This document shows positions 2,716-38,349 of a stretch of 50,046 bases of DNA, one piece after another. Where the stretch lies: the NCBI GenBank assembly GCA_016215155.1, contig JACRLQ010000015.1:26475-76520 (forward strand), read 5' to 3'. Each line of letters begins with the position of its first letter. Positions within the stretch are counted from its first letter, which is position 1. Source of the stretch: Nitrospirota bacterium (GTDB lineage Bacteria; Nitrospirota; Thermodesulfovibrionia; Thermodesulfovibrionales; UBA6898). The translations under genes and the position numbers were made by a program. Under the pieces are notes generated by a model, which was not told the DNA's origin, did no database searches, and saw nothing but the letters and a program-made list of their open reading frames with translations.

Positions 2716-3537
2716 ATGGTCGCAGATGCAATTGTTGGCTTTGTTGATATTCTTGGATATAAAAAACTTCTTGATATCCTACTTTCCGATGTTGAAACTA
2801 TTCGCACATTTGAAGGCATTGTTAACGACATAATAATAAAGCATGCCCCACCACATGAAACTCACGAATTAATTTCCGAAGAAGACCAAGCCTATTATAA
2901 AGAAGTATTTTCCGCCTTCAACACAAGAATTATTTCCGATACATTTATATTCACGCTACCTTTATCAAAAATTAAGCACTCATGCTCAACTCGCAATAAA
3001 AGCGATATCCTTCATACAATACTGTTTGCCTATTTTTATCGCATAGCAAGTGTTTGCGTAGCAATTATTCAAAAAACGGAACATATCCTTCGCGGAGGAA
3101 TTTCATTGGGTTTACATTATGAAAACGACTTCCATCACCAATCAGATGTGCAGTTACTAATAAGCAAAGCTTATGTAAGTGCTCATCAACTTGAACGCAA
3201 AGCGTCAAAAGCGAAGAAGGCAACAATTCTGGTCGATAACAGCCTTCTGGATTACCTAGCAAAAATATCATTCCCGTATGTAGATGTTTTTTTCTATAAG
3301 GATGTGGACGGGGATATATGTTTTGATTTCTATTCCTGTTTAAATAATAATCCAGAGGCAGCGAAGATTTTGGCAAAAGTTCAGCGGGGAGTTACTTTCA
3401 ACCTTGAGGCAAACAAGAATGATGATGAGGCATTAAGAAATTTATTATTTTTTGTCGATTACCATAATAAGCAAGTAGTCAAATCAACTATAAATTGTAG
3501 CCACCTGATAATTGACAAAGCAAAATATTGTCACTAG
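2716..3537 (+). CDS. Class III nucleotidyl-cyclase-like (CHD-fold) protein, orphan
   Basis: The product has about 273 residues and belongs to no named family I can give with certainty. It shows the layout of a class III cyclase homology domain. An N-terminal GFVDILGY (Asp11) is followed by IISDTF (Asp75), which together match the two metal-binding aspartates. Next come ILRGGISLG (Arg126) and a SKAYVSAHQLE..A segment ending in ATILVDNS. The remaining C-terminal part has no obvious partner domain, signal peptide or membrane segment. The start is ATG 2716; an upstream TTG at 2704 is also possible, and neither has a clear ribosome binding site. The gene is AT-rich compared with its flanks, which suggests transfer. 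Similar soluble cyclases make cAMP, cGMP, cCMP or cUMP, but the substrate cannot be read here. It could also be a catalytically silent fold. Confidence 0.6.
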   Translation: MVADAIVGFVDILGYKKLLDILLSDVETIRTFEGIVNDIIIKHAPPHETHELISEEDQAYYKEVFSAFNTRIISDTFIFTLPLSKIKHSCSTRNKSDILHTILFAYFYRIASVCVAIIQKTEHILRGGISLGLHYENDFHHQSDVQLLISKAYVSAHQLERKASKAKKATILVDNSLLDYLAKISFPYVDVFFYKDVDGDICFDFYSCLNNNPEAAKILAKVQRGVTFNLEANKNDDEALRNLLFFVDYHNKQVVKSTINCSHLIIDKAKYCH

Positions 3538-17179: not shown

Positions 17180-19846
17180 CTAAACGGCCTCTACCGAAAC
17201 GGCGCAGGCCTTAAACTCGGGGATCTTCACGACAGGGTCCAAGGCGTCGTTAGTAAGCACATTGGCTGCGGCCTCATGGTAATGCATCGGGATAAACACA
17301 ACCCCCTCGGAGACCCTGGTCGTAATCCTTGCCTTTATATCGACGCTCCCGCGCCTGGACCTGACCCTTACAAGGCCGTGGTCACTAATCTTAAGCCTTG
17401 CGGCGTCTTCCGGATTTATCTCCACATAGGCGTCTCCGGCATGACTTTCTATCTGCTTCACCCTCCTTGTCATCGAACCTGAGTGGTACTGATAGAGGTT
17501 CCGGCCGGTCGTCAGCACGAACGGGTATTGAGCATCCGCAATCTCGACGGGGGGCCTGAAAGAGACCGGGACAAAAGGCACTTTCCCCTTCGGGAAACCG
17601 TCTTTATAGAGGTACTCCGTTCCTGGATGGTCTTTTGACGTGCATGGCCACTGAAGGCCGTACTTCGCGATACGGTGATAGTCTATTCCGCTTAGGGCCG
17701 GCCAGACCCGGCCGAACTCCTCCAGGACTTCCGAAGGGGTCGTAAAACCCATATCGTAGCCCAGGCGGCGTGACAGATCAATAATAACCGAGAGGTCGTC
17801 CCTCGCCTCACCGGGGGGATTGACGGCCTTTCTCACCCTCTGGACCCTGCGTTCGGTATTCGAAAATGTGCCGTCTTTTTCAGGGGCGCAGGAGGCCGGC
17901 AGGACGACGTCCGCGAGCCTTGCGGTCTCGGTCATGAATATGTCCTGCACGACAAGGAAGTCCAGTTTTTCGAGGGCCTCCACCGTATGATGCATATGCG
18001 GATCAGTAAAAACAGGATTTTCCCCCATGATATACATAGCCTTGATGCTTCCGGCCCGCGCCGCATTCATCATCTCCGTTGCCGTAACCCCGCACTGGGG
18101 TGAAAGCGATACCCCCCAGGCCTTTTCGAATTTCTCCCGGACCTCGTCCTGGTCCACCCTCTGGTACCCGGGATAGACATTAGGGAGGCAGGCGGCGTCA
18201 GACGCCCCCTGGACGTTGTTCTGGCCGCGAAGCGGATTGACCCCGGTTGACTCACGTCCGATATTGCCGGTCAGGGTCGCCAGGTTCGCCACGGCCCTTA
18301 CGTTATCGGTCCCGCAGGCATGCTGGGTGATGCCCATGGTATAGAATATCCCGGCCCGCCTCGATTTGCCATACAGCCTCGCGGCGGCGATCATATCGTC
18401 TTTGGGTATGCCGGTCAGCTTAGAGACATACTCCGGGGTGTATTCTTCGATCGCTTTCTTCCACTCCTCGTACCCTTCGGTTTTATCGGAGATGAACTCT
18501 TTATTTTCAAGCCCTTCTTTTACGATCACACGCGCCATCCCGTTTAACAGGGCCACGTCGCTTCCCGGCCGCATCTTTAAAAAAAGCTCCGAGAATTTTG
18601 TCATCGGCACTTTGCGGGGGTCTGCGACAATGATCTTCGCACCTTTTCTGTATGCCTTGATCATCCTGTTGGCGATGACCGGGTGTGTCTCCTTGGTATT
18701 CGACCCGATGATGAAGATGACCTCCATGCCCTCGATCTCCCTGATCGAGTTGGTCATCGCCCCGGAACCGAATATCGCGGCCAGACCGGCCACGGTGGGA
18801 GAGTGTCAGAGACGGGCGCAGTGGTCAACGTTATTTGTGCCGACCGCCGCGCGTATGAACTTCTGGAACGCATAATTTTCTTCGTTGGTGCAGCGGGCGG
18901 AAGAGAGCCCCGCAATGGCATCCGGACCGTCTTCCCGCTTGATCTTCTTAAGCCTGTCTGCGATAAGGTCAAGGGCCTCGTCCCAGGTGGCCTCACGGAA
19001 CTCACCGTCTTTTTTGATAAGAGGGTGCTTCAGTCTGTCAGGGCTGGATACAAATTTATATCCGAACCGGCCCTTGACACAAAGCCAGCCCTCATTGAGG
19101 GTATCCTCTTTTGAGGTGACCCGGACAATATCATTGTTTTTGACATGATACGTTATGGTACAGCCCGTGCCGCAGTAGGAACAGATGGAATCGGTTTCTT
19201 TGACCCCCATCTGCCTGCCGTGCTTTGCCCACTGTTTCCCGGTAAGCGCCCCTGTCGGACAGACCGACACACACTGCCCGCAGAACTCGCAGTTTAAATC
19301 ATCCTCGAAGGACGTGACGATCTTCGAGTCGAACCCGCGGTATCCGAAATCAATCGCCTCAACCCCCTGGACCTCGTCGCACACCTTGACGCACCTTCCG
19401 CATAATATGCATTTTTCGAGGTCCCTTTCGATAAAAGGATTGCCGTCTTTCTTTTCGTAGACCCTTCTTTCACCGGCAAACCTGTTTTCGCGGAGGCCAT
19501 ATTCATAAGCGAGCTCCTGAAGCGTACAGGCGCCTGCCTGCTCGCATATCATGCAGTCATTGGGGTGGTCGGAGAGTATGAGTTCGAGGACTGTCCTTCT
19601 GAGTCTTTCAATCGTCGGGCTGGTCGTTACAATCTCCATCCCGTCGCTCACAGGAGTCGTGCAGGAGGTGACAGGACGGGGGAAGCCCTTTATCTCGACC
19701 AGACAGAGCCTGCAGCCTCCAAAGGGCGTTAGCTTGGGATGCTGGCAGAGGGCAGGGATCCTGACCCCTATATTCCTCGCGGCCTCAAGGACCGTCATCC
19801 CCTCGGCTACGGTCGTATCTATGCCGTCTATCTTAATTTTCGCCAT
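17180..19846 (-). CDS. fdhA: Formate dehydrogenase alpha subunit with selenocysteine and NuoG-like N-terminus
   Basis: This is one 888-residue protein, interrupted only by a TGA at 18806-18808 that encodes selenocysteine 347 (HCARL-Sec-HSPTVAG, matching FdhF/FdhA enzymes). It oxidises formate to CO2 at a molybdenum or tungsten bis-pyranopterin centre. N-terminal order: a [2Fe-2S] ferredoxin domain (CQHPK...GGCRLC...C), the NuoG-type DHPNDCMICEQAGAC cluster site, two [4Fe-4S] motifs (CILCGRCVKVC and CEFCGQCVSVC), then the catalytic domain with its own cluster (CSYCGTGC...CVKG). The C-terminal molydopterin dinucleotide-binding domain includes LTTGRNLYQYHSG. The gene starts three bases after the nuoF-like gene, so electrons should pass to the NuoF/NuoE subunits and NAD. 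Both halves lie in one frame and nothing else is damaged, so this is not a pseudogene. Confidence 0.95.
18768..18808 (-). promoter_or_regulatory. UGA selenocysteine codon with SECIS-like hairpin
   Basis: On the minus strand, 14 bases after the UGA begins GUGGCC-GGUCU-GGCC, a short stem (18779-18791 on the plus strand) with the loop GGUCU. This is the apical loop that SelB recognises in E. coli fdhF at the same kind of distance. The site supports UGA readthrough. No selA, selB, selC or selD gene was found in the window, so they must be elsewhere. Confidence 0.8.
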
Positions 19847-22831: not shown

Positions 22832-24091
22832 ATGGGATCCATCTCGATTTCCGAACTTAAAGAAAAAACCATCGACGAACTTACCGACGTCGCCAAGACA
22901 CTGAAGCTCGAAGGCGCAGGCGGCCTGAGGAAACAGGACCTGATCTTTGCCATCCTCCAGGCGCAGGCCGAAAAGACCGGAAATGTATTTTCCGCCGGTG
23001 TGCTCGAAATCCTCCCTGACGGCTTCGGCTTCCTAAGGTCGCCCGACTACAGCTATCTGCCCGGCCCTGATGATATCTATGTCTCGCCGTCGCAGATAAG
23101 AAGGTTTAACCTGCGGACCGGAGATATGGTGTCCGGCCAGATCAGGCCCCCGAAGGAATCCGAGAGATATTTCGCCCTTCTTAAAGTAGAGGCGATCAAC
23201 CATGAGTCACCCGACGAAAACGTAAAAAGACCTCTCTTTGATAATCTCATCCCTTACTATCCGACTGAAAGAATAAAACTTGAATACGACCCGACCGATT
23301 ATTCGACCAGGGTTATGGAGTTCATCACCCCGACCGGCATGGGACAGAGGGGCATGATCGTGGCCGCTCCCAGGACGGGAAAGACCGTGCTCCTGCAGTC
23401 GATCGCAAAGGCGATCAAGAAAAACCACCGGGACATCCATCTTATCATCCTTCTGATAGACGAGAGGCCCGAGGAGGTGACCGACTGGAAGCGTCAGGTC
23501 TCGACTGCGGAGATCATCGCCTCCACCTTTGACGAGCCGCCGCAGAGACATTGCCAGGTGGCTGAAATGGTCATTGAAAGGGCGAAGCGGCTTGTTGAGT
23601 CCAAAAAGAACGTGGTAATACTCCTTGACAGTATCACAAGACTCGCCAGGGCCTATAACGCCATCATGCCCGCAAGCGGCAAGGTCCTCTCGGGAGGCCT
23701 TGACTCAAACGCGCTTCAGAGACCGAAGCGGTTCTTCGGCGCGGCCAGAAACATCGAAAACGGCGGCAGCCTTACGATCCTTGCCACCGCGCTGGTGGAC
23801 ACCGGAAGCAGGATGGACGACGTCATCTTCGAAGAATTCAAGGGCACCGGCAACATGGAACTCCATCTCGACAGAAAGCTTGTCGACAAGCGGATATTCC
23901 CGACGATCGACATCAACAGCTCGGGCACGAGAAAGGAAGAGCTCCTGGTCGACAAGGAAGTCCTCTCCAGGATGTGGATATTGAGGAAGGTGCTTAATCC
24001 TCTCAGCACGGTGGAGAGTATGGAGTTTCTTCTTGGGAAGCTCACCGGGACCAAGACAAACAAAGAGTTTCTGGACCTGATGAATAAATAA
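22832..24091 (+). CDS. rho: Transcription termination factor Rho
   Basis: The hexameric RNA helicase of factor-dependent termination, 419 residues. It has an N-terminal helical Rho_N domain ([24 protein letters not shown]), a cold-shock-like RNA-binding domain ([30 protein letters not shown]), and the ATPase core with Walker [12 protein letters not shown], Walker B ([16 protein letters not shown]), Q-loop region [10 protein letters not shown] and RMWILRKVL at the end. GGAG nine bases before the ATG is the ribosome binding site. The 158-base leader before it has no clear attenuator. Confidence 0.97.
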
Positions 24092-24099
24092 CGGGTCTG

Positions 24100-24399
24100 A
24101 TGGAAGACGGGTCCAGGGCGAAGAGATTCCTTAAGGGTGGCGCCGTCGTTGGCGGGATCATCAGCCTCGCGATCGCCCTGCTGATGGACACCATGTACGC
24201 CGACACCCTTCAGGGCACATGGCGTGACGCGATCGCCAAAGACCTAAATACTTTTTTATCGCTCGGCCTTTCATCGGGCAGCGTAATCGTCTATCTTTTT
24301 TTCTTTTTTATACTTGGGCTGCTGACCGCGTTCGGTTCGTTGATGGGGTTCATTTTTTCTTTCTTCCTCTATAAATTTTTCGGGATGTTAAGCAAATGA
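24100..24399 (+). CDS. Small two-helix membrane protein between rho and the cytochrome
   Basis: The 99-residue protein has two hydrophobic stretches (about 12-28 and 60-95) and no known motif. It starts eight bases after rho and ends 14 bases before the cytochrome gene, so it is probably in one transcription unit with both. It could help assemble or anchor the cytochrome, but nothing in the sequence shows that. Confidence 0.65.
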   Translation: MEDGSRAKRFLKGGAVVGGIISLAIALLMDTMYADTLQGTWRDAIAKDLNTFLSLGLSSGSVIVYLFFFFILGLLTAFGSLMGFIFSFFLYKFFGMLSK

Positions 24400-24413: not shown

Positions 24414-25289
24414 GTGTCAGTCTCTTCGTTTTTTTCGAAATTTATTGAAGAAAACCAGAAGGCTATAGTGCTTCTGTTTCTGCTTCTCACCATAATCGGC
24501 GGCATCGTGGGGTTCAGGTATTACAGGCATACGAAGGACGACCCCGAGTTCTGCATGTCCTGCCATATGATGCAGGAGGCGTTCAAGACCTGGGAAAAGA
24601 GCAAGCACAGGGACTTCACCTGCCAGAAGTGTCACGTGATGAACATCCTCGAACAAAACAAAATGCTCATATCCTATGTTGTGAAGGGGGCAAACGCCAC
24701 TACGCAGAAACACGGACGGGTATCGCCGTGGGACGCGTGCGCGGGGTGTCATCTCTCCGCGGTTTCCCAGGGATCGTTGACGCTCAATAAATCATACGGC
24801 CACTCGAAACATGTCTTTATGCAGCAGATAAACTGCAGCCGGTGCCATACCGGCACTCTGCACATGTTTTCCCCTAACCAGCAGGCCTGCGCGGAGTGCC
24901 ATAAGGACAAGGTCATCCACGGGATGGGGATGGAGGGCATGGCCTGCCTTTCCTGCCACAATTACAGCGAAAAATCGCCCAAGATGATCTCGACGGATAA
25001 ATGCCGGTCATGCCATAAGAGTATCCCGGTCAAGGGCGTAATGGCCGCGCTTAAGTGCTTTGACTGCCATCATCCCCACGGGAAGATCAAGCCTTCGAAT
25101 CAGGACTGCTTAAAGACCTGCCACGGCAATGAGGCCACTGTCGGCCAGCACAATCTTCATATGACAAAGGCGAAAATGAACTGCCTCGACTGCCACAAGG
25201 CGCATGGCTGGACGGTAGGTAAAACAGAGGCCGCGAAGCTCTGCAGCCGGTGCCACAAATTAAAAAACCCGGCTACTTTTATTTACTAA
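24414..25289 (+). CDS. NapC/NirT-type eleven-heme cytochrome c
   Basis: The 291-residue protein has one N-terminal membrane anchor (about residues 17-35) and then ten CxxCH heme sites plus one CLKTCH, a CX3CH spacing. The first region (DDPEFCMSCHMMQEAFKTWEKSKH) matches NapC/NirT/NrfH quinol-oxidising cytochromes; the rest is a longer multiheme chain facing the periplasm. The family normally has four or five hemes, so this is an extended type. It probably takes electrons from the quinone pool to periplasmic or outer-membrane acceptors. The start is GTG 24414. It converges on the gene of the giant heme-bearing NHL protein. Confidence 0.88.
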   Translation: MSVSSFFSKFIEENQKAIVLLFLLLTIIGGIVGFRYYRHTKDDPEFCMSCHMMQEAFKTWEKSKHRDFTCQKCHVMNILEQNKMLISYVVKGANATTQKHGRVSPWDACAGCHLSAVSQGSLTLNKSYGHSKHVFMQQINCSRCHTGTLHMFSPNQQACAECHKDKVIHGMGMEGMACLSCHNYSEKSPKMISTDKCRSCHKSIPVKGVMAALKCFDCHHPHGKIKPSNQDCLKTCHGNEATVGQHNLHMTKAKMNCLDCHKAHGWTVGKTEAAKLCSRCHKLKNPATFIY

Positions 25290-25296
25290 TGATCAG

Positions 25297-25315
25297 CTGA
25301 AAAAGTCTTTTTCAG
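25297..25315. terminator. Hairpin between convergent cytochrome genes
   Basis: CTGAAAAA-GTC-TTTTTCAG is a perfect eight-base-pair stem with a three-base loop, eight bases after the cytochrome stop. The T run is inside the stem, so it may act as a weak bidirectional terminator or only as an RNA 3' end. Confidence 0.4.
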
Positions 25316-25402: not shown

Positions 25403-28400
25403 TTATGGGGAGGGTATAAAGCCCCTGAACCCTTTATTGTGCGGATGACAGAGTATGCAATCAGTGCCGTTATGATGGCTGTTTCCATCAGTTTGACCGG
25501 ACGCGTCATACCTGTGATGGTCAGTTACAATGTGGCAAACTTCACATATTCTGCTCGAGGATGTGTGATAATCGCTGTCATCTCCAAATTCCGTTGGGTT
25601 GTTAAATACGACATTACTGCCGGGGAAACTGCCGGTCGGCGCATTGACGGTCCCGACAATCCGCTTGATATTCGGACTGCTTTTTTCATGGCAGGTCAAA
25701 CAACCGATAGGACCGTACAGAGAACCCGGCAGTCCCCAGGCCCCGCCCCATTTATTAGTCGGCGTCCATATGCCTCCATTCATCTGGCAAAGGGTCTGAC
25801 TAGTGCCTGTGTATTCAGGCGCGTTCAGGCACGATCCATACCGGTTGGAGTTATGAAGAATCTGGCTCGTTTCGGTATCGAACCAGGCATTAGGGCCTGC
25901 GTTTCCCGCGGCAAAAGCAACAGATGGCCCTGCCGACGCCGAAATATTTCCTGCCTTGTCTATCGCGGTCCCGGCCTTTATCGTTATGCCTATGTCGCCA
26001 TTGCCGTAAACGTTCATGATCGTTATCGTCCGGGCACTGCCGGTCCCGGTTACCGAGACAGTCCCATTTGCGTTGCCTGAACGGCTCAAAAGCACACTTC
26101 CCGATGAAAGACTGACTTCGGTCATATTGGCATCGGCATACGTCACGGTATACGTTACCGGCCCTGATGACGTTGACGATACGGAAGGCCCGCTGATCTC
26201 GATAGCGGGGGGATCGGGATCATAGGTGAAGGAAGCGACTATAGTATGATCAGCGGTGACGCCAACCAGACTATATGTGTTGCCGTTCACTTCTCCGAAG
26301 ACGGACTCCCCGTTGTCATACAGACCACTGAAGAAATAATAAGGGTTGGCATCCACACGGCACACGACATTTTCACCGTGGCCGACGGGTTGGGGAGAGC
26401 AGGATATCACTCCCTGGCCCTCCGGCGCGTATGAAGAAATCGTGTATTGAGTCCCCGTTCCGGATAGATTCACTGTAATTGGACTCCCATACATATTTGA
26501 CGGTATCGACATACTTGAGCTCTTCGGGCCTCCTGTTGAAGGTGAGAAAACAACCTCAACTGAGCATTCGGCGGAAGGCCCGATCTTCATGTCTGAGCAG
26601 CTGTCGTTTTGGATCGTAAATTCACCTGCGTCGCCGCCGGTAATGTTTATGCTATTTACGTTGAGGTTGTTCGTGCCTGTATTCAATATCGTAAAGGTCT
26701 GCGCCGGCGATGAAGTATCAGGATCGATTATGCCGAAGTCCGCTGAATCCGGAGAAAGGGAAAGTCCGGGGTCGCCGAACAGCCCGCTGCCGCCCCGCAC
26801 AGGCCAGGCGTAATAGCCGGCCTCTTTAAAGTCGGCGCTCTCATAGCCTGTTTCCATGCTGACGACCAGTGATTCGGACGCGTCGGCCTCTTTGACGGTC
26901 GATGTCCAGTATTGACTCAACTGTACATTAGTGAAAGGGCTGCCCGAAGGCAACGGCGGATTATTCATTTCGAAGTCGATAAGACTAGACAACTCTTTTC
27001 TGTTGGGCAGGCGCCAATCACCGGAACTCGTCCCGTCAGTCAGGCCGCAGTTCCCGCTTGAAAGGCTCTCTGACCACAAAAGAGAATCGGCCCAGGAGAG
27101 TTCCCCTGCGCAGTTGGCGTCCTTTAGCCATATCAGTCCGGTGAGATCATCCGTTACCGTGCCGTCACTATTGTCGATAAATCTGGGATTCGGCGAGCCC
27201 GCGCCGGCCTGCATAGCTCCATCATCACCACCGGCATAACCGGTCGTCTGCCCTGTTTTCAACACGGGCACACCGGAGAACGGCCCGGTCTGTCCGCCGG
27301 ACACCGGCCAGATGTATAACGGTTCCAACTTCAACCTGTTGCCCACATCCCCGCCACTCATGGCAACTTTCCAGGCGTCATCCGTATTGCCGGAAGAGGT
27401 GGTAGACGTCCAGTAGTAGTCCGATACCACATTTATAAAAGGATTTCCAAAACTGCCGCTTTCATTCAGCCATGCGGCTGAATCCGACTGGCCGGCATTT
27501 AGCAGGCTTTTGAGCTCATTAACATTGGGCAGCCTCCAATCGTTACGACCGTACGCGCCGGTCCCGCCGTTGGCTGTGTTCATTGAAGCCACAAAATCGA
27601 GGGCCTCCTGCCAGGTCTTTGCTTCAGCAGTCAGGTTTGCGTCCTTCGTCCATATGAGCCCGGTCAGTTTGTCGGTCACGGTCTCATCCCCCTTGTCAGC
27701 AAACCTCGGATCAGGCCATGAAATTCCATATTTAAGGTCACCGTCGTCTCCCGTTGAATACGTGGTGTTCTGCCCGGTCTGACCCAGTTCAACGGCGTGG
27801 TCTCCTTCCGCAAAAGTGACGACAATATTCGTATGATCATCCGTAACGTATAAAAATGTATAGGTCAGACTGCCGTCGCTCTTTACAAGATGACCGGAAA
27901 CAGGGACGCCGTCGTCCGTCATGCTGAAGATATAGTAGCCCGGATCCGGCGTCACTGTGCAGACGGAGTTGTTACCGTAATCCACCGGAGACTCACATGA
28001 AATCGTCCCTTGTCCGTCGGAAACCGTTGCCGCAACCTGATAGGTGAACCGGTAACGGTCTTCTTTGACCTCCTCGCCGTTGCCGACATTGTCGATCGAA
28101 GCATAGCGGAGATAGACTTCAGCGCCGCTGGCGACACTGATCGGCCCGCTGTATGGCGTGCCCGGGATACAACCCGCCCCTGTGCAGTATAGCAGCGCTC
28201 CGCACCCTGAGCCTGACACGTCCTTACACTTGAGGGTGACCGCCTGTGAACTGTCATATGTGTCGCCGGAAGGGGTCGCCGAGGTTACCGGAGCTTCCAG
28301 GTCCTGTCTGACGGCAGAGCTCCTTACGGACTCTGTATTGCCGGCATTGTCAACGGATTGATATCTCACATATTGGGTGCAGGTGTTGCCGGAGGCACAT

Positions 28401-31400
28401 GTGAAGCTTATCGCGCCTGTATAGCTTATTGACGGGGCGCAATTATCAGAGGTATCAACACAGTATTTCGGATATCCGGCTTTCACTCCCGAGCCGTCGG
28501 CGTCGCTTGCAGAGAGAGTCACACTCACCACGCCGCCGGCCGTCCAGTTTCCGAGGGTATAGCCCCCAGCTGTCGCCGCCGTTACAGGCGGGGTAAGATC
28601 CTGCTTGATATTAACGCTCTTTACACTTTCGAGGTTCAGAAATCTGTCATAAGCCTGAAACATAACATACTGCGTGCAGGTATTGCCGGAGTCACAGGTC
28701 ACATCTATCGGCGCGGTGTAGCTCGTCGCCGGCGCGCATGTATTCGTCGTTACGCAATACTTCGGATACCCGCTGAGCACTCCGGCGCCTGAATCAGCTG
28801 CCGAGAGCGTCACACTCACCGTCCCGCTGTTTGTCCAACTGCCGAAGGAATATCCCGCTGCTGAAGCGGTGCTTGCCGGAGCTGCGCTGTCGACCTCCAC
28901 CCTGCGGATACGGTGATTGTACCGGTCGGCTACATAGATGTTGCCCAAGCTGTCCAGGGCGACGCCGTAGGGATTATTAAGGCTTGCGGCGGTGGCGATA
29001 ACTCCGTCAGTATAATAAGCTCCTGAGCCGGTCCCCGCTGCTGTGCTGATAATTCCCGAAGAGTTAACTTTACGAATACGGGAATGGCTCGTGTCGGCAA
29101 TGAAAATATCCCCCACTCCATTGACCGCTATACCTCTCGGATAATAAAGACTTGCGGCAGAGGCCTGCCCTCCGTCCCTGATATTGGCGGTGGCGCCGTC
29201 GCCGGCGTATGTGCTTATAACGCCCGCGGTGACTTTCCGGACGCGGTGGTTATAGGTATCGCTTATAAAAATGTTTCCCGAACTGTCAACCGCGACTCCG
29301 GAGGGATAATTGAGGTTTGCAGAAGCAGCAGGGCCGTTATCTCCTCCAAAGCCCCCCGTGGAGCTGCTGCCGGCCACTGTATTGATCTTGCCGTCCGTAA
29401 TAGTGACCTTCCTGATGCGGTGGTTATTTTGATCGGCAATATATATGTTGCCTGAGCCGTCCAAGGCCACATCGTTTGGGTACAGAAGTCTTGCCGAGGT
29501 GGCCGGGCCGGTGTCTCCCGCAAAACCTGAAGTTGCGCTGCCGGCCACTGTATTGATCTTGCCGTCCGTAATAGTGACCTTCCTGATGCGGTGGTTATTT
29601 TGATCGGCAATATATATGTTGCCTGAGCTGTCCAGAGTTATTCCCTGGGGGTAATTGAGGTTTGCAGAAGCAGCAGGGCCGTTATCTCCTCCAAAGCCCG
29701 GAGTCCCATTGCCGGCAATTATGTCGATCACCCCTGACGTATTGATCTTGCGTATCACGTGATGATCGCTATCCGATATATAGACATTTCCCGAGCCGTC
29801 AACAACCGCGGCACGGGGGAACCTCAGACCCGAAAGAACAGCCTGGTCCCCGTCCGCCGTGCTCGCGCCGACGAGGGTGCTTATATTCCCGGTTGAAACT
29901 GTCACTTTGCGGATGCCGTTGTTGTAAGTGTCTGCAATGTATATATTCCCTGAACCGTCTAAACCCACGGCCATCGGATAGTATATTTTTGCGGCTGTAG
30001 CCGGACCTCCATCCCCTGTAAAACCATAACTTCCACTTCCGGCTACAGTATGGATCTTGCCGTCCTCTATCGTTACCTTCCTGATCCGATTGTTAGACCT
30101 GTCAGCAATATAAAAATTCCCGGAGCTATCCAGCGCGACCCCTGAGGGGTTGTTTAAATTTGCTGAAGTTGCGGCTGCTCCATCTCCTCCGAAACCTCCG
30201 GTGGAACTGCTGCCCGCCACTGTGCTGATATAGCCGGTCGAAGCCGCAACCATTCTTATTCTGTGATTGGAAGTATCTGCGATATAGATGTCCCCATTGC
30301 TCTTGACCGCAACCCCCATAGGTGACGAGAGGGTCGAGGAGGTCGCCGGTATGTTATCCGCGGTAAAGCCAGGGGTCCCGTTGCCGGCAACTGTCGTTAT
30401 GATACCTGTTGTGGCGTTTATCATCCGGACACGATGGTTGCCGTAATCCGCTATATAAAGGTTGCCTGAGCTGTCGAAGGACATTCCCCGCGGGTTGAGC
30501 CCTGCCAGGACGGCCGGTCCGCCGTCTCCCGACCAGGCAGACGCGCCGGTCCCTGCGACGGTGCTGATAGCGCCTGTTGCGACCGACACCTTCCTGACGC
30601 GGTTGTTGCTGGTATCGGCTATATAGATATTGCCCGCGTTATCCGACAGGACCCCGGCGGGAAATTTGAGTCCCGCGGCCGCCGCGGGCCACTCATCTCC
30701 CGAAAAAGTCCCCCTGCCGGTTCCGGCTATAGTGCTTATATTGCCCAACACATCTATCTTTCGCACCCGATTGTTTGAACTATCCGCTATATAGATATTC
30801 CCAAGGCTGTCCAGTGCAACCCCAAAAGGCATGCTGACTATTCCCGAAGTCGCTGCTCCGCCATCACCTGTTCCTCCGCCTGAGAAGGTTGTAATCATCC
30901 CCTGGGCCGGCACATAAGCGAAGATTGCTGTTACCGCAGTATCCGCGTTCATGGTCACGGCACATGTCCCGCTCCCTGAACAGCCGCCGCCGGACCATCC
31001 CACGAAGGCCGAGCCGCTATCCGGTGCAGCGGTCAAGACCACCACCGTATTGTTCGTATATGCCGAACTGCAGCCGGTCCCGCAGCTGATGTCGTTGCCG
31101 GTCACCGCGCCGGTGCCTGAGCCGCCCAGATACACCGTCAGTCTCCGGGCCGTAGTTGTCGTAGCTGTAGTGCCTGTAGCCGTATTGCCCAGCCCGTCCA
31201 CGGCGCAGACCCTGTATGAGTATTGTGTCGCAAACGCCAAAGGAGTGTGCAGGTAGCTCTGCATCTGCCCTGTATAAATCATTGAACCTGAGCTGCAGTC
31301 TGAAGGAGGAGTCGCTCCTGAGGCATATACCAGCTTGTATGAGACGTGGCCGCCGCCTGTATCTGACGAACTCCAGATGAGCTGCACACTGGTGGAGGCA

Positions 31401-34400
31401 GGAAACGCACTGATGGGGCCCTGCCGGTCCTGTCTGACCTGACTGCTCTTCACTATCTCATTATTTCCGGAGTTGTCGGCGGAAAAATACCTCACGTACT
31501 GGGTGCAGGTGAACCCTGCCGCGCAGGTAACACTAACTGTAGGGCCGCTTGTCGAAGGCAGGCAGGTGTCTGTTGTGTCCACGCAATATCTGGGATACCC
31601 GAAGGCCACGCCGCTGCCGTCGGCGTCGCTCGCGGTCAAGGTCACGGCCACCGCGCCGTCGGCCGCCCAATCCCCGAAGGTATAGCCTGCCGCGGAGGCT
31701 GTCGTCACCGGAGGAGCGGTTTCGAATTCGGCAAACGCCGCCGAAAGGCTGTGCGTTCCTGCCACAGAGCTGAAGACATAAGGCGAGGCCGTACTCTGAG
31801 CATTGCCGTCGGCGGTTACCGACCGGGTGACAAAGCCGCTATCGGGGCTGATAACACAGGATGAACTTGCTCCGTAATCCACCGGGTTGGGGGCACAGAT
31901 TATGCTCCCGTTGGGTCCCGCATTTGTCGTGATAGCGAAAGTTTGCACCGTGAATACAGGATATATGGCCATGTCCGAAGTCATGCTGTTTATCGAGCAA
32001 GTATTGACCGTGGTTGAGTTACAGCCGGACCCCCAGTTGATTGAGGTGCCCGACGGCAAGTTTGCAGTCAGGATAACCGCGCTCCCGGTGTTGATCCCTC
32101 CCGATGCGCATACGCCGCCTGAGGCCGCACCGTTCCAGGCGCAGTTGACGGCCCCAAGGCTGCTTGTAACAGTAGCGCTTTGGCCATAAGAGACCATACC
32201 TGAGGGGCTTACCGTCAATGTCCTGGTGACAACAGCCGAGGCGTTGACTGTCGTATCTGTCGATAAATTCATATTGCATGTGTCATTCTCAAGGACAGTG
32301 GTGGAGATAGTGCCGCAGCCGGACCACAAAATGCCGAACCCGGAAGGAAAAGCCGCCACCAGGCTGACGGCGCCTCCGTAAGGGATCCCGGTTGAGACGC
32401 AGGACCCCCATTTGACAGACCCGTTCCATCTGCAGTCTATTGCTCCGGTGCCGCCGATTGTTATGCTCTGTCCGTTGGGGATGTCCCCGGATATATTGAC
32501 AGTCACGCTGCTGAAATAATTGAACTTCTGGACCCGGTTGTTAGCCGTATCAGCCACATAAACGTTGCCGCTGCCGTCCACGGATATTCCGCCAGGATCA
32601 GTAAACTGGCCGTTGCCTGAGCCATAACTCCCCCATCGCGTCTGATATACCCCCGAAGAATTGAACTTCTGTATTCGGTTGTTGCCCGCATCAGTCACAT
32701 ACACATTGCCGCTGCCGTCCGCCGCAACTCCGCCAGGATTATCAAACTGGCCGTTGCCTGAGCCATAACTCCCCCACTGGGTCTGATACACTCCTGAAGA
32801 ATTGAACTTCTGTATTCGGTTGTTGCCCGCATCAGCCACATAAATGTTGCCGCTGCCGTCCACTGCTACCGCCGCAGGATAACTGAACTGGCCATTACCT
32901 GTGCCATAACTACCCCACTTGGTAATATATGCGCCGCCGTCCATAGCCATTCCCTCAGGATAATTGAACTGACCGCTGCCGCCGCTGCTTCCCCACTGGG
33001 TCAAATACGTCCCGCCTGTGCTGAACTTCTGTATACGGTTGTTATTCGTATCAGCCGCATACACATTGCCGCTGCCGTCTACCGCCACTCCCGTGACATC
33101 ATTAAACTGGCCGTTACCGGCGCCGCTGCTCCCCCACTGGGTCAAATACGTCCCGTTTGAGCTGAACTTCTGTATACGGTCGTTATTCATATCAGCCGCA
33201 TACACATTGCCGCTGCCGTCCACCGCCAATCCCGTGACATCATTAAACTGGCCGTTACCGGCGCCGCTGCTTCCCCACTGTGTCTGATACACTCCTGAAG
33301 AATTGAACTTCTGTATACGGTTGTTGCCCGCATCAGCCACATAAATGTTGCCGCTGCCGTCCACTGCTACCGCCGCAGGATAACTGAACTGGCCATTACC
33401 TGTGCCATAACTACCCCACTTGGTAATATATGCGCCGTTTGAACTGAACTTCTGTATACGATCGTTGCCTGTATCGGCCACATAAACGTTGCCGCTGCCG
33501 TCCACTGCTATCCCTTTAGGATAACTGAACAGGCCATTATCACTGCCTAAGCTTCCCCACTGGGTAACATATGTTCCGTCCGAGTTAAACTTCTGGATGC
33601 GGCTGTTATATCTGTCGGCCACATATACGTTGCCGCTGCCGTCCGCTGCTATCCCTTCAGGAAACGAGAACTGGCCGTTTTCGCCACCGAAACTGCCCCA
33701 CTGGATCAAAAAAGTGCCGTCCGAATCAAACTTTTGGATTCTGTCGTTAAAGGTATCAGCCACATAAACGTTGCCGCTGCCGTCCGCCGCTACGCCCATG
33801 GGTAACTGAAGTGGGTCGTAGTCCCCGCTCCTGCCCCACTTTGTCAGGAATGCTCCTCCTGAGTCGAATTTCTGGATACGGAGGTTATCCGAATCAACCA
33901 CATATACGTTGCCGCTGCCGTCTACAGCAATGCCATAAGGTAAATTCAACTGGCCGTTTTCGATACCATAGCTCCCCCATTGTGTCAGATATGTCCCGGT
34001 TGAACTGAACTTCTGGATACGGAAGTTGCCGAGATCAACTACGTACACGTTGCCGCTACTGTCCACCGCTGAACCGTAAGGACTGCTAAACTGACCGTCG
34101 TCGGAGCCATAGCCACCCCACTGGGTCAGGTACGTCCCGCCTGAATCGAATTTCTGGATGCGGTTATTGCCCGTATCTGCCACGTACACGTTGCCGCTGC
34201 CGTCTGCCGCTACTGTAACAGGATAAACGAATTGGCCGTAGTCGCTGCCGGAACTCCCCCACTGGGTCAGGTATGTCCCGCCTGAATCGAACTTCTGGAT
34301 ACGGTCGTTATTCGTATCAGCTACATACACGATGCCGCTGCCATCTACCGCTACTCCTAAAGGATAATTGAACTGGCCGTTGTCGATGCCGTACCCTCCC

Positions 34401-34783
34401 CACTGGGTAACATATGTCCCGTCAGAGCTGAACTTCTGTATGCGATGGTTATTCGAATCGACTACATATACGTTGCCGCTTATATCGACGGCTATTCCGT
34501 TAGGAGAATCGAACTGGCCGTTGCCGCTGCCATAGCTCCCCCACTGGGTCAGATATGTCCCGCCTGAGCTGAACTTCTGTATACGATGGTTATTCGAATC
34601 GACCACATAAACGCTGCCGCTTATATCAACAGCTATTCCGTAAGGAACATTGAAGAGTCCGCCCCCCGCCGGCCACGCACGCTCAAATACATATGATCCC
34701 AGGGCATGAGAAGGCAGCAACGCCGCTAACACGGCACAAACGCCTAAAAAACATAGTAACCGGGACAACCTTCCTGAATTCAT
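25403..34783 (-). CDS. Giant exported NHL-propeller / Ig / DUF1566 protein with C-terminal triheme module
   Basis: A 3126-residue protein starts with a signal peptide (hydrophobic CFLGVCAVLAALL, cleavage after HALG). Residues about 37-755 hold 15 full NHL repeats and one truncated repeat of about 48 residues (GSGNVYVADTGNNRIQKF type). Residues about 756-1290 hold InlB-like and FN3-like beta domains. Residues about 1294-1967 hold 12 NHL repeats of a second type (GNIYIADTSNNRVRK, often followed by a TVAG turn), enough for two six-blade propellers. More Ig-like repeats with paired cysteines (YPKYCV, CTQYV) follow, then two DUF1566 (Lcl C-terminal) domains at about 2331-2664 with WRLPN, a choice-of-anchor-D domain at about 2670-2764, and a C-terminal domain with three heme sites CLTCH, CEVCH and CILCH. 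A GGGGGG ribosome binding site precedes the ATG. It is likely a cell-surface or secreted adhesin or scaffold that also carries electrons; the function is inference. Confidence 0.85.
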   Translation of the reverse strand: MNSGRLSRLLCFLGVCAVLAALLPSHALGSYVFERAWPAGGGLFNVPYGIAVDISGSVYVVDSNNHRIQKFSSGGTYLTQWGSYGSGNGQFDSPNGIAVDISGNVYVVDSNNHRIQKFSSDGTYVTQWGGYGIDNGQFNYPLGVAVDGSGIVYVADTNNDRIQKFDSGGTYLTQWGSSGSDYGQFVYPVTVAADGSGNVYVADTGNNRIQKFDSGGTYLTQWGGYGSDDGQFSSPYGSAVDSSGNVYVVDLGNFRIQKFSSTGTYLTQWGSYGIENGQLNLPYGIAVDGSGNVYVVDSDNLRIQKFDSGGAFLTKWGRSGDYDPLQLPMGVAADGSGNVYVADTFNDRIQKFDSDGTFLIQWGSFGGENGQFSFPEGIAADGSGNVYVADRYNSRIQKFNSDGTYVTQWGSLGSDNGLFSYPKGIAVDGSGNVYVADTGNDRIQKFSSNGAYITKWGSYGTGNGQFSYPAAVAVDGSGNIYVADAGNNRIQKFNSSGVYQTQWGSSGAGNGQFNDVTGLAVDGSGNVYAADMNNDRIQKFSSNGTYLTQWGSSGAGNGQFNDVTGVAVDGSGNVYAADTNNNRIQKFSTGGTYLTQWGSSGGSGQFNYPEGMAMDGGAYITKWGSYGTGNGQFSYPAAVAVDGSGNIYVADAGNNRIQKFNSSGVYQTQWGSYGSGNGQFDNPGGVAADGSGNVYVTDAGNNRIQKFNSSGVYQTRWGSYGSGNGQFTDPGGISVDGSGNVYVADTANNRVQKFNYFSSVTVNISGDIPNGQSITIGGTGAIDCRWNGSVKWGSCVSTGIPYGGAVSLVAAFPSGFGILWSGCGTISTTVLENDTCNMNLSTDTTVNASAVVTRTLTVSPSGMVSYGQSATVTSSLGAVNCAWNGAASGGVCASGGINTGSAVILTANLPSGTSINWGSGCNSTTVNTCSINSMTSDMAIYPVFTVQTFAITTNAGPNGSIICAPNPVDYGASSSCVISPDSGFVTRSVTADGNAQSTASPYVFSSVAGTHSLSAAFAEFETAPPVTTASAAGYTFGDWAADGAVAVTLTASDADGSGVAFGYPRYCVDTTDTCLPSTSGPTVSVTCAAGFTCTQYVRYFSADNSGNNEIVKSSQVRQDRQGPISAFPASTSVQLIWSSSDTGGGHVSYKLVYASGATPPSDCSSGSMIYTGQMQSYLHTPLAFATQYSYRVCAVDGLGNTATGTTATTTTARRLTVYLGGSGTGAVTGNDISCGTGCSSAYTNNTVVVLTAAPDSGSAFVGWSGGGCSGSGTCAVTMNADTAVTAIFAYVPAQGMITTFSGGGTGDGGAATSGIVSMPFGVALDSLGNIYIADSSNNRVRKIDVLGNISTIAGTGRGTFSGDEWPAAAAGLKFPAGVLSDNAGNIYIADTSNNRVRKVSVATGAISTVAGTGASAWSGDGGPAVLAGLNPRGMSFDSSGNLYIADYGNHRVRMINATTGIITTVAGNGTPGFTADNIPATSSTLSSPMGVAVKSNGDIYIADTSNHRIRMVAASTGYISTVAGSSSTGGFGGDGAAATSANLNNPSGVALDSSGNFYIADRSNNRIRKVTIEDGKIHTVAGSGSYGFTGDGGPATAAKIYYPMAVGLDGSGNIYIADTYNNGIRKVTVSTGNISTLVGASTADGDQAVLSGLRFPRAAVVDGSGNVYISDSDHHVIRKINTSGVIDIIAGNGTPGFGGDNGPAASANLNYPQGITLDSSGNIYIADQNNHRIRKVTITDGKINTVAGSATSGFAGDTGPATSARLLYPNDVALDGSGNIYIADQNNHRIRKVTITDGKINTVAGSSSTGGFGGDNGPAASANLNYPSGVAVDSSGNIFISDTYNHRVRKVTAGVISTYAGDGATANIRDGGQASAASLYYPRGIAVNGVGDIFIADTSHSRIRKVNSSGIISTAAGTGSGAYYTDGVIATAASLNNPYGVALDSLGNIYVADRYNHRIRRVEVDSAAPASTASAAGYSFGSWTNSGTVSVTLSAADSGAGVLSGYPKYCVTTNTCAPATSYTAPIDVTCDSGNTCTQYVMFQAYDRFLNLESVKSVNIKQDLTPPVTAATAGGYTLGNWTAGGVVSVTLSASDADGSGVKAGYPKYCVDTSDNCAPSISYTGAISFTCASGNTCTQYVRYQSVDNAGNTESVRSSAVRQDLEAPVTSATPSGDTYDSSQAVTLKCKDVSGSGCGALLYCTGAGCIPGTPYSGPISVASGAEVYLRYASIDNVGNGEEVKEDRYRFTYQVAATVSDGQGTISCESPVDYGNNSVCTVTPDPGYYIFSMTDDGVPVSGHLVKSDGSLTYTFLYVTDDHTNIVVTFAEGDHAVELGQTGQNTTYSTGDDGDLKYGISWPDPRFADKGDETVTDKLTGLIWTKDANLTAEAKTWQEALDFVASMNTANGGTGAYGRNDWRLPNVNELKSLLNAGQSDSAAWLNESGSFGNPFINVVSDYYWTSTTSSGNTDDAWKVAMSGGDVGNRLKLEPLYIWPVSGGQTGPFSGVPVLKTGQTTGYAGGDDGAMQAGAGSPNPRFIDNSDGTVTDDLTGLIWLKDANCAGELSWADSLLWSESLSSGNCGLTDGTSSGDWRLPNRKELSSLIDFEMNNPPLPSGSPFTNVQLSQYWTSTVKEADASESLVVSMETGYESADFKEAGYYAWPVRGGSGLFGDPGLSLSPDSADFGIIDPDTSSPAQTFTILNTGTNNLNVNSINITGGDAGEFTIQNDSCSDMKIGPSAECSVEVVFSPSTGGPKSSSMSIPSNMYGSPITVNLSGTGTQYTISSYAPEGQGVISCSPQPVGHGENVVCRVDANPYYFFSGLYDNGESVFGEVNGNTYSLVGVTADHTIVASFTYDPDPPAIEISGPSVSSTSSGPVTYTVTYADANMTEVSLSSGSVLLSRSGNANGTVSVTGTGSARTITIMNVYGNGDIGITIKAGTAIDKAGNISASAGPSVAFAAGNAGPNAWFDTETSQILHNSNRYGSCLNAPEYTGTSQTLCQMNGGIWTPTNKWGGAWGLPGSLYGPIGCLTCHEKSSPNIKRIVGTVNAPTGSFPGSNVVFNNPTEFGDDSDYHTSSSRICEVCHIVTDHHRYDASGQTDGNSHHNGTDCILCHPHNKGFRGFIPSP
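32781..32936 (-). repeat. Near-identical intragenic repeat, copy A (ends at truncated blade)
   Basis: About 156 bases match 33282-33437 with one difference seen (tattcgg against tatacgg). The two copies lie 501 bases apart, which is 167 codons, so the frame is kept. Copy A joins directly to the truncated NHL repeat (...MAMDG-GAYITKW). Confidence 0.8.
33282..33437 (-). repeat. Near-identical intragenic repeat, copy B
   Basis: This is the partner of 32781-32936. It lies in an intact blade context, where the sequence continues into DRIQKFSSNGAYITKW. The whole 32500-34680 stretch is built of diverged units of about 144-147 bases, one per propeller blade. Confidence 0.8.
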
Positions 34784-35131: not shown

Positions 35132-35593
35132 TTATGAAATGGAGACTTTTATCTCCGACTGCCTGGCCTCTTCCTTTTTCGGCAATACGATCTCGAGCAC
35201 ACCGTTTTTAAAGGCGGCCTTCGCCTTTGCCGAATCGACGTCCGGAGGAAGCGGGATGGTCCTGCTGAAGCTTCCGAAGGACCTCTCAAGAGAATAATAG
35301 TTCTCCTGCTTGACCTCTTCCTCCTTCCTGAGCTCCCCCTTGAGGGTGAGGTGGTCCTTCGTGATCGTAAGGTCGATGTTCTCCTTCTCGACGCCCGGGA
35401 TGTCGGCCTTGACTACCACCTCGCCATTGCGTTCAAACACGTCCACGCTCGGGACGAACTGGCCGGGCTCGATGTTCTTAAGTCCGAACCTTCTTCTCGA
35501 TGCCGGCTCTAAAAAATCACCAAACAGCTTGTCCAGATCTCTTCTCATATCCTCAAGCTCCCTTATCGGGGCCCATTTTACTATAGACGACAT
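35132..35593 (-). CDS. Hsp20 family small heat-shock protein
   Basis: The 153-residue chaperone holds unfolding proteins in a refoldable state. The alpha-crystallin domain spans about residues 45-140: PSVDVFERNGEVVVKADIPGVEKENIDLTI, then LKGELRKEEE and a GVLEIVLPK motif at its end. An I-x-V tail (IKVSI) ends the protein. An AGGAGG ribosome binding site precedes the ATG. It is the last gene of the cluster, 119 bases after clpB, and may share its promoter or have its own. Confidence 0.95.
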   Translation of the reverse strand: MSSIVKWAPIRELEDMRRDLDKLFGDFLEPASRRRFGLKNIEPGQFVPSVDVFERNGEVVVKADIPGVEKENIDLTITKDHLTLKGELRKEEEVKQENYYSLERSFGSFSRTIPLPPDVDSAKAKAAFKNGVLEIVLPKKEEARQSEIKVSIS

Positions 35594-35712: not shown

Positions 35713-38349
35713 TCATGAGGCGACCTCTGCCGCGGCCATTTTGCTGAAGACAACCGCGTCTCCCGCATAATCGACCTCGACCGTGTCTCCCTCGCCGAAA
35801 GTCCGGTCGAGAATTTTTCTGGCGAGCTCGTTTAAGACGGATTTCTGGAGTACCCTTTTAAGCGGCCGGGCCCCGTATACCGGATCGAAGCCTGTCGCCG
35901 CGAAATATTCCCTGGCCCTGTCGGTCAGTACAAGGTCGATGTTCTTCTCCCTGATATACTTCTTCATACGCTCCACCTGGATATCAACTATTTTTTTCAG
36001 CATGTCCCTGCCGAGGGCGTTAAAAATGATGATCTCATCCACCCTGTTTAAAAATTCCGGCCTGAAGAAGGTCTTAAGGTCTTCCATGATCTTTTCCTTA
36101 AAGGCTGAGTCTGACTCCACCCAGTACGCGGACGGATTTTTTTCTTTCTCCGTCAGCATGTCGATTATATGGGTGCTTCCTATATTTGAGGTCATGATAA
36201 CGACCGCGTTTCTGAAGTCCACCGTTTTTCCGTGGCTGTCCGTGAGCCTCCCGTCATCGAGCACCTGAAGAAGGAGATTGAATACCTCGGCATGGGCCTT
36301 TTCGACCTCATCAAAAAGGATCACGGAGTACGGTCTGCGCCTTACCGCCTCGGTCAGCTGCCCGCCCTCTTCATAGCCGACATACCCCGGAGGGGCGCCT
36401 ATCAGTCTCGATACGGTATGCCTCTCCTGATATTCGGACATGTCTATTCTGATCATCGCATTTTCGTCGTCGAAGAGAAATTCAGCGAGGGCACGGGCCA
36501 GCTCGGTCTTGCCTACCCCCGTGGGACCCAGGAATATGAAGGACCCGATCGGCCTGTTGGGGTCCTGTATGCCGGCCCTGGCCCTTCTTACCGCGTTCGT
36601 AACCGCCTCTATGGCCTCGTCCTGTCCTACGACCCTATGCCTGAGCTTGTCGTCCATTGTAAGGAGCTTCTGGAGTTCCCCTTCGAGCATTTTGGACACG
36701 GGGATATTCGTCCACTTGGAGACGACCTCCGCAATGTCTTCCTCATCCACCTCTTCCTTCAACATCTTGGTTTTTTTCTGTATCTCCAGCAACTTCGTAT
36801 TTTCAGCGTCGAGTGACTTCTGAAGCTCGAGGAGCTGTCCGTATCTGAGGGCGGCCGCCTTTGCGAGGTCGCCTTCCCTTTCGGCCTTTTCGGAGTCGAT
36901 TTTGGTCTGCTCGATCCGCCCCTTGAAGTCGCGTATGCGCTTTATCGCTTCTTTTTCCGTCAACCACTGGGCCCTCAATTTGTCCCTTTCGCCCTGAAGC
37001 TCGGCGATCTCGCGGCCGATCTTTTCGTTTTTGTCTCTGCCCTCTTTCGTGTCTTCCTTCATCACGGCCTGTTTTTCTATGCCAAGCTGCCTCAATCTTC
37101 TTTCGATCTCGTCGAGCTCGACCGGCATGCTGTCGATCTCCATCCTGAGTTTTGAGGCCGCCTCGTCAATAAGGTCTATCGCCTTGTCCGGAAGATACCG
37201 GTCAGTGATATATCTGTGCGACAGCATTGCGGCGGACACCAGCGCGGTGTCTCTTATCTTCACCCCGTGGTGCACCTCATATTTTTCCTTGAGGCCGCGC
37301 AGGATCGAGATCGTGTCTTCTACAGAGGGCTCCTTGATCAAAATCGGTTGAAAACGCCTCTCGAGCGCCGGGTCTTTCTCTATATATTTTCTGAACTCCC
37401 CGATCGTCGTGGCCCCGACACATCTGAGTTCCCCCCTTGCGAGCGCCGGTTTCAGCATGTTGGACGCGTCTATCGCCCCCTCGGCGGCGCCGGCGCCCAC
37501 CAGGGTGTGGAGTTCGTCGATAAACAGTATTATCTTGCCTTCGGACTCCTCGATCTCCTTTATCACCGCCTTCAGCCTGTCTTCGAACTCACCCCTGAAC
37601 TTCGCTCCGGCAATCAGCGCGCCCATGTCGAGCGCCACGACCTTCTTGTCCTTGAGTGTTTCGGGCACGTCACCGGCCACGATGCGCTGCGCCAGCCCTT
37701 CGGCGAGGGCCGTCTTTCCGACACCCGGGTCTCCTATCAGGACCGGATTATTTTTCGTCCTTCTCGAGAGGACCTGTATTACCCTCCTGATCTCCTCGTC
37801 TCTGCCGATCACGGGGTCGAGCTTCCCCCTTGAGGCGAGTTCCGTCAGGTCTTTGCTGAACTTTTTTATGGCCTGATATTTTTCTTCAGGGTTTGCGTCC
37901 GTCACCCTCTGCGTCCCCCTTATCTCTCTCATCGCGGCCAGGACCCTGTCGTGGTCCGCCCCCGCCCTGGCAAGTTTTTCCGAGGCGGGCCCGCCTGCCG
38001 CGGTTATCGCAAGCAGAAGGTGTTCGACGCTGACATACTCGTCTTTAAGACGCTCGGCCTCTTTCTGGGCCTTTTCAAGCGCGTCTTTCAGCCTCGGTGA
38101 TATATATATCTGCCCTACCGGCGTAGCGCCCACCACCTTTGGCTGCCTGTCGATATGGTCTTCGATGTCTTTTTTGAGGGCCGCTATATTTGTGCCGATC
38201 CTCTTTATTATTTGGGCGGCGACTCCCTCGTCGTCATCGAGGAGGACCCACAGAAGATGCTCGACATCTATCTGCTGCTGCCCCTTCCTCTCCGCGAGCC
38301 TCTGGGTCTGCTGTATCGCCTCCTGGCTTTTTATCGTAAATTTTTCCAT
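35713..38349 (-). CDS. clpB: ClpB disaggregase
   Basis: The 878-residue AAA+ chaperone extracts polypeptides from aggregates. It has an N-terminal Clp_N double repeat (about 1-145), AAA1 with Walker A GDPGVGKT and [12 protein letters not shown], a coiled-coil middle domain at about 400-530 that marks ClpB, AAA2 with GPTGVGKTE and a pore loop near GYVGYEEGG, and a C-terminal D2-small domain. Length is normal. It follows hspR by 12 bases. ClpB needs a DnaK system, but dnaK is not in this window. Confidence 0.97.

Follow-up and report, generated by a model that had tools for sequence, protein, structure and literature searches.

The window, a 50,046-nucleotide stretch of Nitrospirota DNA, encodes a membrane cytochrome of NapC/NirT type that appears to have expanded to eleven hemes in its periplasmic part. 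On balance, this protein probably acts as a menaquinol dehydrogenase that feeds several periplasmic acceptors, a hub of which the giant heme protein encoded next to it would not be part. The quinol role is probable from its domain and membrane anchor, and the acceptors are likely ones given their co-occurrence with the cytochrome and the fact that its own genome encodes no other NapC/NirT protein. The exit of electrons from the quinol pool is poorly known in Nitrospirota related to Thermodesulfovibrio, and a conserved NapC-like protein with eleven heme sites, linked to a small membrane protein and often accompanied by a decaheme–porin pair or an octaheme reductase, provides a concrete, testable candidate. 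A search of titles and abstract openings, with subscription papers mostly outside its range, returned no description of this eleven-heme family. The features on which the argument draws are as follows.

22832..24091, plus strand: rho, transcription termination factor, upstream on the same strand (context only)
24100..24399, plus strand: m99, a 99-aa two-helix membrane protein, the proposed partner (no Pfam or NCBIfam match)
24414..25289, plus strand: eleven-heme NapC/NirT-domain cytochrome c, 291 aa (open reading frame with a GTG start)
24453..24524, plus strand: codons for residues 14–37, the single hydrophobic (membrane) segment (hydropathy)
24552..24572, plus strand: first heme site, CMSCHMM, residues 47–53, a CxxCHxM (Met53 is present in all 30 sequences; NrfH 2j7a aligns over the region)
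25107..25124, plus strand: CLKTCH (CX3CH), the ninth heme motif, residues 232–237 (motif alignment, homologs, tree)
25403..34783, minus strand: giant NHL-repeat protein, 3126 aa, CxxCH at 3028, 3080 and 3109 (C-terminus), a convergent neighbour outside the proposed system
35132..35593, minus strand: hsp20, with clpB a syntenic anchor near the cytochrome in genus mates that lack the giant
35713–38349: clpB, syntenic anchor with hsp20

Elsewhere in the window, a formate dehydrogenase-like gene of 888 codons (17180–19846, minus strand) has an in-frame TGA at codon 347 (CARL-U-HSP) and is overlapped by an Rfam SECIS_3 match at 18753–18811 (40 bits, below the cut-off of 63). This gene likely encodes a selenoprotein, which the open reading frame listing splits in two.

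Heme sites and conservation of the cytochrome

The initial annotation had placed the gene at 24414–25315; its start stands, and the stop lies at 25289, 26 bases short of the end given there. What had been said of the protein itself was borne out: it has a membrane-anchored NapC/NirT start, with one N-terminal segment (residues 14–37) and a Pfam Cytochrom_NNT (NapC/NirT N-terminal) match over residues 17–183 (29.8 bits against a gathering cut-off of 24.1), and its translation contains ten CxxCH motifs and one CLKTCH within 291 residues, a number well beyond the four or five hemes usual in NapC/NirT members (PMC12285233). Cytochrom_c3_2 and Cytochrome_C7 (class III/c7-type heme repeats) likewise scored above their Pfam cut-offs, and no NCBIfam model reached its cut-off. 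With all 24 candidates in its own genome scored, the eleven-heme cytochrome was the single Cytochrom_NNT match at E <= 0.001. Helix 15–42 is the sole confident part of the predicted structure, and the model (mean pLDDT 40) was left out of all fold searches.

Homologs were examined at 31 loci, and the 29 aligned share 49–81% identity with the window's protein. All 29 full-length homologs carry ten CxxCH motifs and one CX3CH motif, so the eleven-motif pattern is not due to chance; at two further loci, L047 and L048, a single gene is divided between contigs, and the CX3CH motif is present on the fragment that spans its position. Eight more distant homologs have the same ten-plus-one pattern. Across 30 sequences (the window's included, L047 and L048 left out of these counts and of the tree), all 22 motif cysteines and all 11 motif histidines are invariant, as are ten histidines outside the motifs (65, 100, 130, 133, 150, 169, 222, 246, 249 and 264) and Met53, part of the CxxCHxM at heme 1. 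In NrfH, the methionine of such a motif serves as ligand to heme 1. The ten invariant histidines together with Met53 thus supply eleven candidate distal ligands for eleven hemes, and the cytochrome likely carries all eleven.

Maximum-likelihood analysis of 53 rows places the 38 CX3CH rows together on the same side of a single branch, which has support 98/87 and recurs in 99% of 200 bootstrap trees; none of 500 label shuffles gave a value as low as that of the CX3CH grouping. The tree was rooted at its midpoint and carries a long-branch warning, so its deep branching order is less sure than this grouping. Two other multiheme proteins (L115_7342 and L116_18570) and L121, for which no open reading frame was obtained, were left out of the tree; L112 was retained despite a masked stretch in its protein, and L110 had no match. 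Outside the CX3CH group, a ten-heme sister group (L102, L103, L104, L105 and L109) has ten canonical sites, among them the ninth, and lacks the last. Eleven canonical sites are found in the paralogs and the f21 group, and twelve in L111. Both the ten-heme sisters and the 11-CxxCH paralogs have a canonical motif at the position of the CX3CH site. The simplest reading is a single-residue insertion that occurred once in a working heme site and was retained in all rows seen. The fixed CX3CH is well suited to the question of why such an atypical heme site persists after it has appeared.

All 16 loci found in a scan of genome contigs for close relatives bear Nitrospirota names, and viral contigs contained no relative. 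Matches at E <= 1e-10 occur in 33 of 41 genomes, the window's own included, a count that also takes in the distant paralog, of which the own genome has one. Among 295 genomes of the phylum, 93 gave a family match at E <= 1e-20, and 70 of these were counted as the window's kind or the ten-heme sister. E-value and matched range served to tell apart the window type, the ten-heme sister and the paralog. Counted among the 70 are G276, G226 and G146, whose frames are partial or broken, the split G002, and G060; six f21 genomes were counted as cytochrome-negative. Only part of the first-look candidates was scored in these phylum searches, so absences are less firm than presences. The co-occurrence counts given below (70 against 225 genomes) are confounded by common ancestry, which Fisher values ignore, and such values are not to be read as probabilities.

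A linked membrane protein and candidate acceptors

The gaps between rho and m99 (8 bases) and between m99 and the cytochrome gene (14 bases) suggest that the three are read as one transcript. Rho and m99 each lie upstream on the same strand at 21 of the 31 loci, and in L051 and L055 m99 is found downstream on the other strand. A promoter scan returned three sites against 2.3 expected, the best of them 108 bases upstream of rho, and was not used as evidence. Across the phylum, m99 is present in 67 of the 70 cytochrome genomes (the exceptions being G304, G060 and G110) versus 5 of the 225 without the cytochrome, and those five have the paralog. The two genes are less than 7 kb apart in 33 of the 67 genomes, farther apart on one contig in 2 and on different contigs in 32; the 34 genomes with m99 beyond 7 kb are to be read with the fact that many assemblies are split into contigs. 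Joint presence and joint absence both occur within families f1, f2, f4 and f13, so deep ancestry alone does not explain the co-occurrence. By linkage and co-occurrence, m99 is the likeliest partner of the cytochrome. Its predicted structure (mean pLDDT 86, pTM 0.67) has helices at 2–32, 41–53 and 62–98, and a conserved GTWRDAI stretch in the loop should, from the basic residues at the N-terminus, face the periplasm.

Two other kinds of gene accompany the cytochrome at some loci. A hotdog (4HBT) thioesterase-like gene, absent from the window, lies between m99 and the cytochrome in L036, L038, L039, L046, L049, L050, L053, L061, L121 and, by eye, L037; the assignment was made by Pfam for L038 only, and the gene, considered as a partner, was taken for a passenger. 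Small glycine-rich membrane proteins that form one cluster are encoded after or near the cytochrome in L051, L055, L116, L117, L118, L119 and L120, at some of these loci together with NrfD/Fe-S or b561-type genes; the one tested (L117) had no Pfam match.

In the mechanism we propose, all eleven hemes would be attached. Menaquinol would give up its electrons at the membrane to the first of them, and the remaining hemes would pass these along a short wire to partners that are soluble or in the outer membrane, with m99 as a putative subunit or assembly partner. The cytochrome would then be a hub and not a dedicated donor. In its own genome two proteins would be likely acceptors, one an octaheme nitrite-reductase-like protein, the other the decaheme lipoprotein of an MtrAB-like pair. 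A more specific version, in which cytochrome and m99 make up a two-subunit, CymA-like quinol dehydrogenase of Nitrospirota that serves both octaheme nitrite ammonification and the MtrAB-like conduit, with the CX3CH heme an obligatory part of the wire, is tentative, and we would sooner expect it to fail in some part than to hold in all.

On contig C20 of the same genome (L122:6494–13604; the cytochrome is on C48), an octaheme nitrite-reductase-like gene is followed by napA, napG, napH and napB and by what is probably napD, so called from position and look only. NapA, napG and napH score above NCBIfam cut-offs and napB above its Pfam cut-off; no napC was seen at this cluster. The octaheme reading frame (561 aa, eight heme motifs, one CxxCK) is the genome's only Cytochrom_C552 match, and its heme number and family point to an octaheme nitrite-reductase-like protein. 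This gene occurs in 39 of the 70 cytochrome genomes versus 12 of the 225 others, 31 of the 70 lacking it, and 28 of the 30 genomes with a copy at >= 69% identity have the cytochrome. The Cytochrom_C552 genes of relatives are either on a different contig from the cytochrome or separated from it by 61 kb (the nearest case, in G300) or more. Any Cytochrom_C552 match was found in 47 of 70 cytochrome genomes versus 37 of 225. The canonical NrfA, separated from the octaheme type by length and score, showed no clear association (12 of 70 versus 22 of 225), and a role of the cytochrome as its dedicated partner was set aside. Short nrfH-like reading frames of 155–167 aa lie beside nrfA in G011, G020, G029, G033, G037 and G040, and others of 154–170 aa are present in G006, G015 and G021, where the search covered nrfH-like frames only. 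A true nrfH beside nrfA coexists with the cytochrome in five genomes (G011, G020, G029, G037 and G040), and the latter is thus no plain replacement for NrfH. A nap operon without NapC is also described for the rice-paddy genome Nbg-4, to which NrfA and NrfH were assigned (PMC5812927), and NapGH may serve napA where NapC is missing (PMC5812927, PMC12285233).

The second candidate acceptor is encoded on contig C40 of the same genome (L134:5122–8103), where a gene for a decaheme lipoprotein-like cytochrome is followed by a 658-aa reading frame that the Pfam porin model misses. This decaheme has nine CxxCH motifs and a CLSACH and is 77% identical to the decaheme of relatives, in which (L127, L128 and L130) a porin of about 650 aa is encoded next to a cytochrome of about 335 aa that is lipoprotein-like and carries nine CxxCH motifs and a CX3CH. 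By position and likeness, we took the 658-aa frame for a divergent MtrB-like porin, and the C40 pair is a probable MtrAB-like outer-membrane conduit; the own genome gave no MtrB/PioB match at E <= 1e-5. Five loci with weak MtrB/PioB matches were examined: three (L127, L128, L130) have the pair, the weak match being to its porin, L131 lacks it, and in L129 the decaheme is present, though open reading frame picking did not bring out the pair. MtrB/PioB matches overall (55) fall in 23 of 70 cytochrome genomes versus 32 of 225 without; the 36 strong matches divide as 8 of 70 versus 28 of 225, and the 19 weak ones as 15 of 70 versus 4 of 225. The decaheme of the pair was found at E <= 1e-80 in 42 of 70 cytochrome genomes versus 13 of 225, and at a looser limit in 44 of 70 versus 35 of 225. 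As the decaheme co-occurs with the cytochrome, a path from quinol through the eleven-heme cytochrome to the decaheme–porin pair is a fair guess; no gene linkage between the two was seen. The octaheme gene or the decaheme is present in 58 of the 70 cytochrome genomes, and 12 have neither.

Alternative readings and the giant neighbour

The initial annotation had paired the cytochrome with the giant protein in a possible quinol-to-surface path. The two genes do converge, with 113 bases (about 110 had been stated) between cytochrome and giant reading frames, and both products have heme motifs. When the suggested check of linkage in relatives was run, however, two probes from the giant (its last 170 residues and residues 2201–2956) matched none of the 31 neighbourhoods. 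Several of these have short downstream flanks, so the firm cases of absence are the genus mates, and the giant is missing from all four of them. In L033, L034 and L035, 7.7–10 kb of downstream sequence was covered: clpB comes next after the cytochrome in L034 and L035, and in L033 a 478-aa reading frame (no Pfam match), hsp20 and clpB follow in turn. In L047 the next gene is that for indole-3-glycerol phosphate synthase. In the window, the giant sits between the cytochrome and hsp20-clpB-hspR-dnaJ; its absence from the cytochrome–clpB junction of genus mates marks it as a lineage-specific neighbour, gained here or lost elsewhere. Given these neighbourhoods and the convergent strands, and with the decaheme–porin pair the likelier route for any surface path, the joint pathway was discarded and we regard it as highly improbable; within the explanation we favour, the giant is an unrelated neighbour. 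The segment between the two genes folds no better into a hairpin than shuffled sequence (z 0.16). The giant itself combines many NHL repeats and Lcl_C domains with its tri-heme tail, and similar tails are found in reading frames of very different length. The tail was matched in 16 of 41 genomes, the own included (with a second copy on another contig), and in relatives it lies on a separate contig from the cytochrome except in G011 (about 1.9 Mb apart) and G029 (about 1.0 Mb).

Two further alternatives concern the cytochrome alone. It could be a ten-heme protein in which the CX3CH site no longer binds heme: its spacing is atypical, and ten is also the number of sites in the sister group, where, however, the one missing is the last. 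Against this, none of the 30 sequences departs from the two cysteines and the histidine of CX3CH, which also occur in each of the 38 CX3CH rows of the tree, the eleven candidate distal ligands are invariant, and covalent heme at a CXXXCH motif is known from mass spectrometry on MmcA (PMC11024163), so that a ten-heme protein seems to us very unlikely. Less remote, though still doubtful, is that the cytochrome is a relay that does not itself touch quinone and depends on a separate quinone-handling membrane subunit, as would be the case for the 11-CxxCH paralogs, whose module comprises the 11-CxxCH cytochrome, a 4-heme cytochrome, an Fe-S protein and an NrfD-like protein (the last two assigned by families). 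NrfD and Fe-S genes do follow the cytochrome in L051 (same family, by Pfam) and L052 (by look), and a b561-type gene follows it in L117 (Pfam), L055 and L118 (by look). Given these genes, quinone may be handled by such partners at those five loci. The cytochrome also heads other clusters, with NrfD, Fe-S and c7-type multiheme genes in L051 and b561-type and 7-heme genes in L117. In the window and its genus mates, by contrast, m99 and rho lie upstream and no genes of these kinds were seen downstream, where not all neighbours were searched by family, and the cytochrome itself has an anchor and a first heme site of NrfH type. These features speak against the relay reading.

Relation to known systems

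The cytochrome is best described as a variant of the NapC/NirT family, with more hemes, a ninth site that is fixed as CX3CH and, probably, a small membrane protein as partner; it is called a variant because the norm of four or five hemes is a tendency and not a rule. The best solved-structure match to a profile of the 30 sequences is NrfH (PDB 2j7a; E 4.9e-9, over the first two heme sites), a tetraheme menaquinol dehydrogenase with which it shares the anchor-proximal region, the first two heme sites and the CxxCHxM at heme 1, whereas NrfH has four motifs and the cytochrome eleven. Identification as NrfH proper was rejected (53.1 bits against the NCBIfam TIGR03153 equivalog cut-off of 134.2; the gene is not beside nrfA), as was that as a DmsE/MtrA-type decaheme (36.2 bits against the TIGR03508 subfamily cut-off of 192.2).

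ImcH of Geobacter also combines a NapC/NirT-like part with many hemes and one CX3CH. As described, however, it has three membrane segments, a CX3CH next to them and 5–9 CX2CH motifs (PMC6295460), whereas the cytochrome has one membrane segment and ten CxxCH motifs, and its CX3CH is the ninth site; on these described features it was not assigned to ImcH. The ImcH survey (PMC6295460) lists none for Nitrospirae. Reading frames of 501–530 aa with a NapC/NirT-domain match, a length as reported for ImcH (PMC6295460), are present in G011, G017, G018, G020, G028 and G040.

The 11-CxxCH paralog (own copy L064:9571–10572) is homologous to the cytochrome over most of its length and likewise has eleven motifs. 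It differs in being about 325–345 aa long, in having only canonical motifs and in being encoded with 4-heme, Fe-S and NrfD-like subunits. In the window's own genome, this module (contig C96, L064:9571–13197) consists of the eleven-CxxCH paralog, a 4-heme cytochrome, a DsrO/NrfC-like Fe-S protein and an NrfD-like membrane protein, and is a probable quinone-linked complex separate from the one proposed here.

A close parallel to the role proposed for the cytochrome is CymA of Shewanella, a quinol hub for several partners (PMC6295460, PMC12285233). CymA has four hemes, all bound at CXXCH, as against the eleven predicted for the cytochrome, and the two are likened by role and not by sequence.
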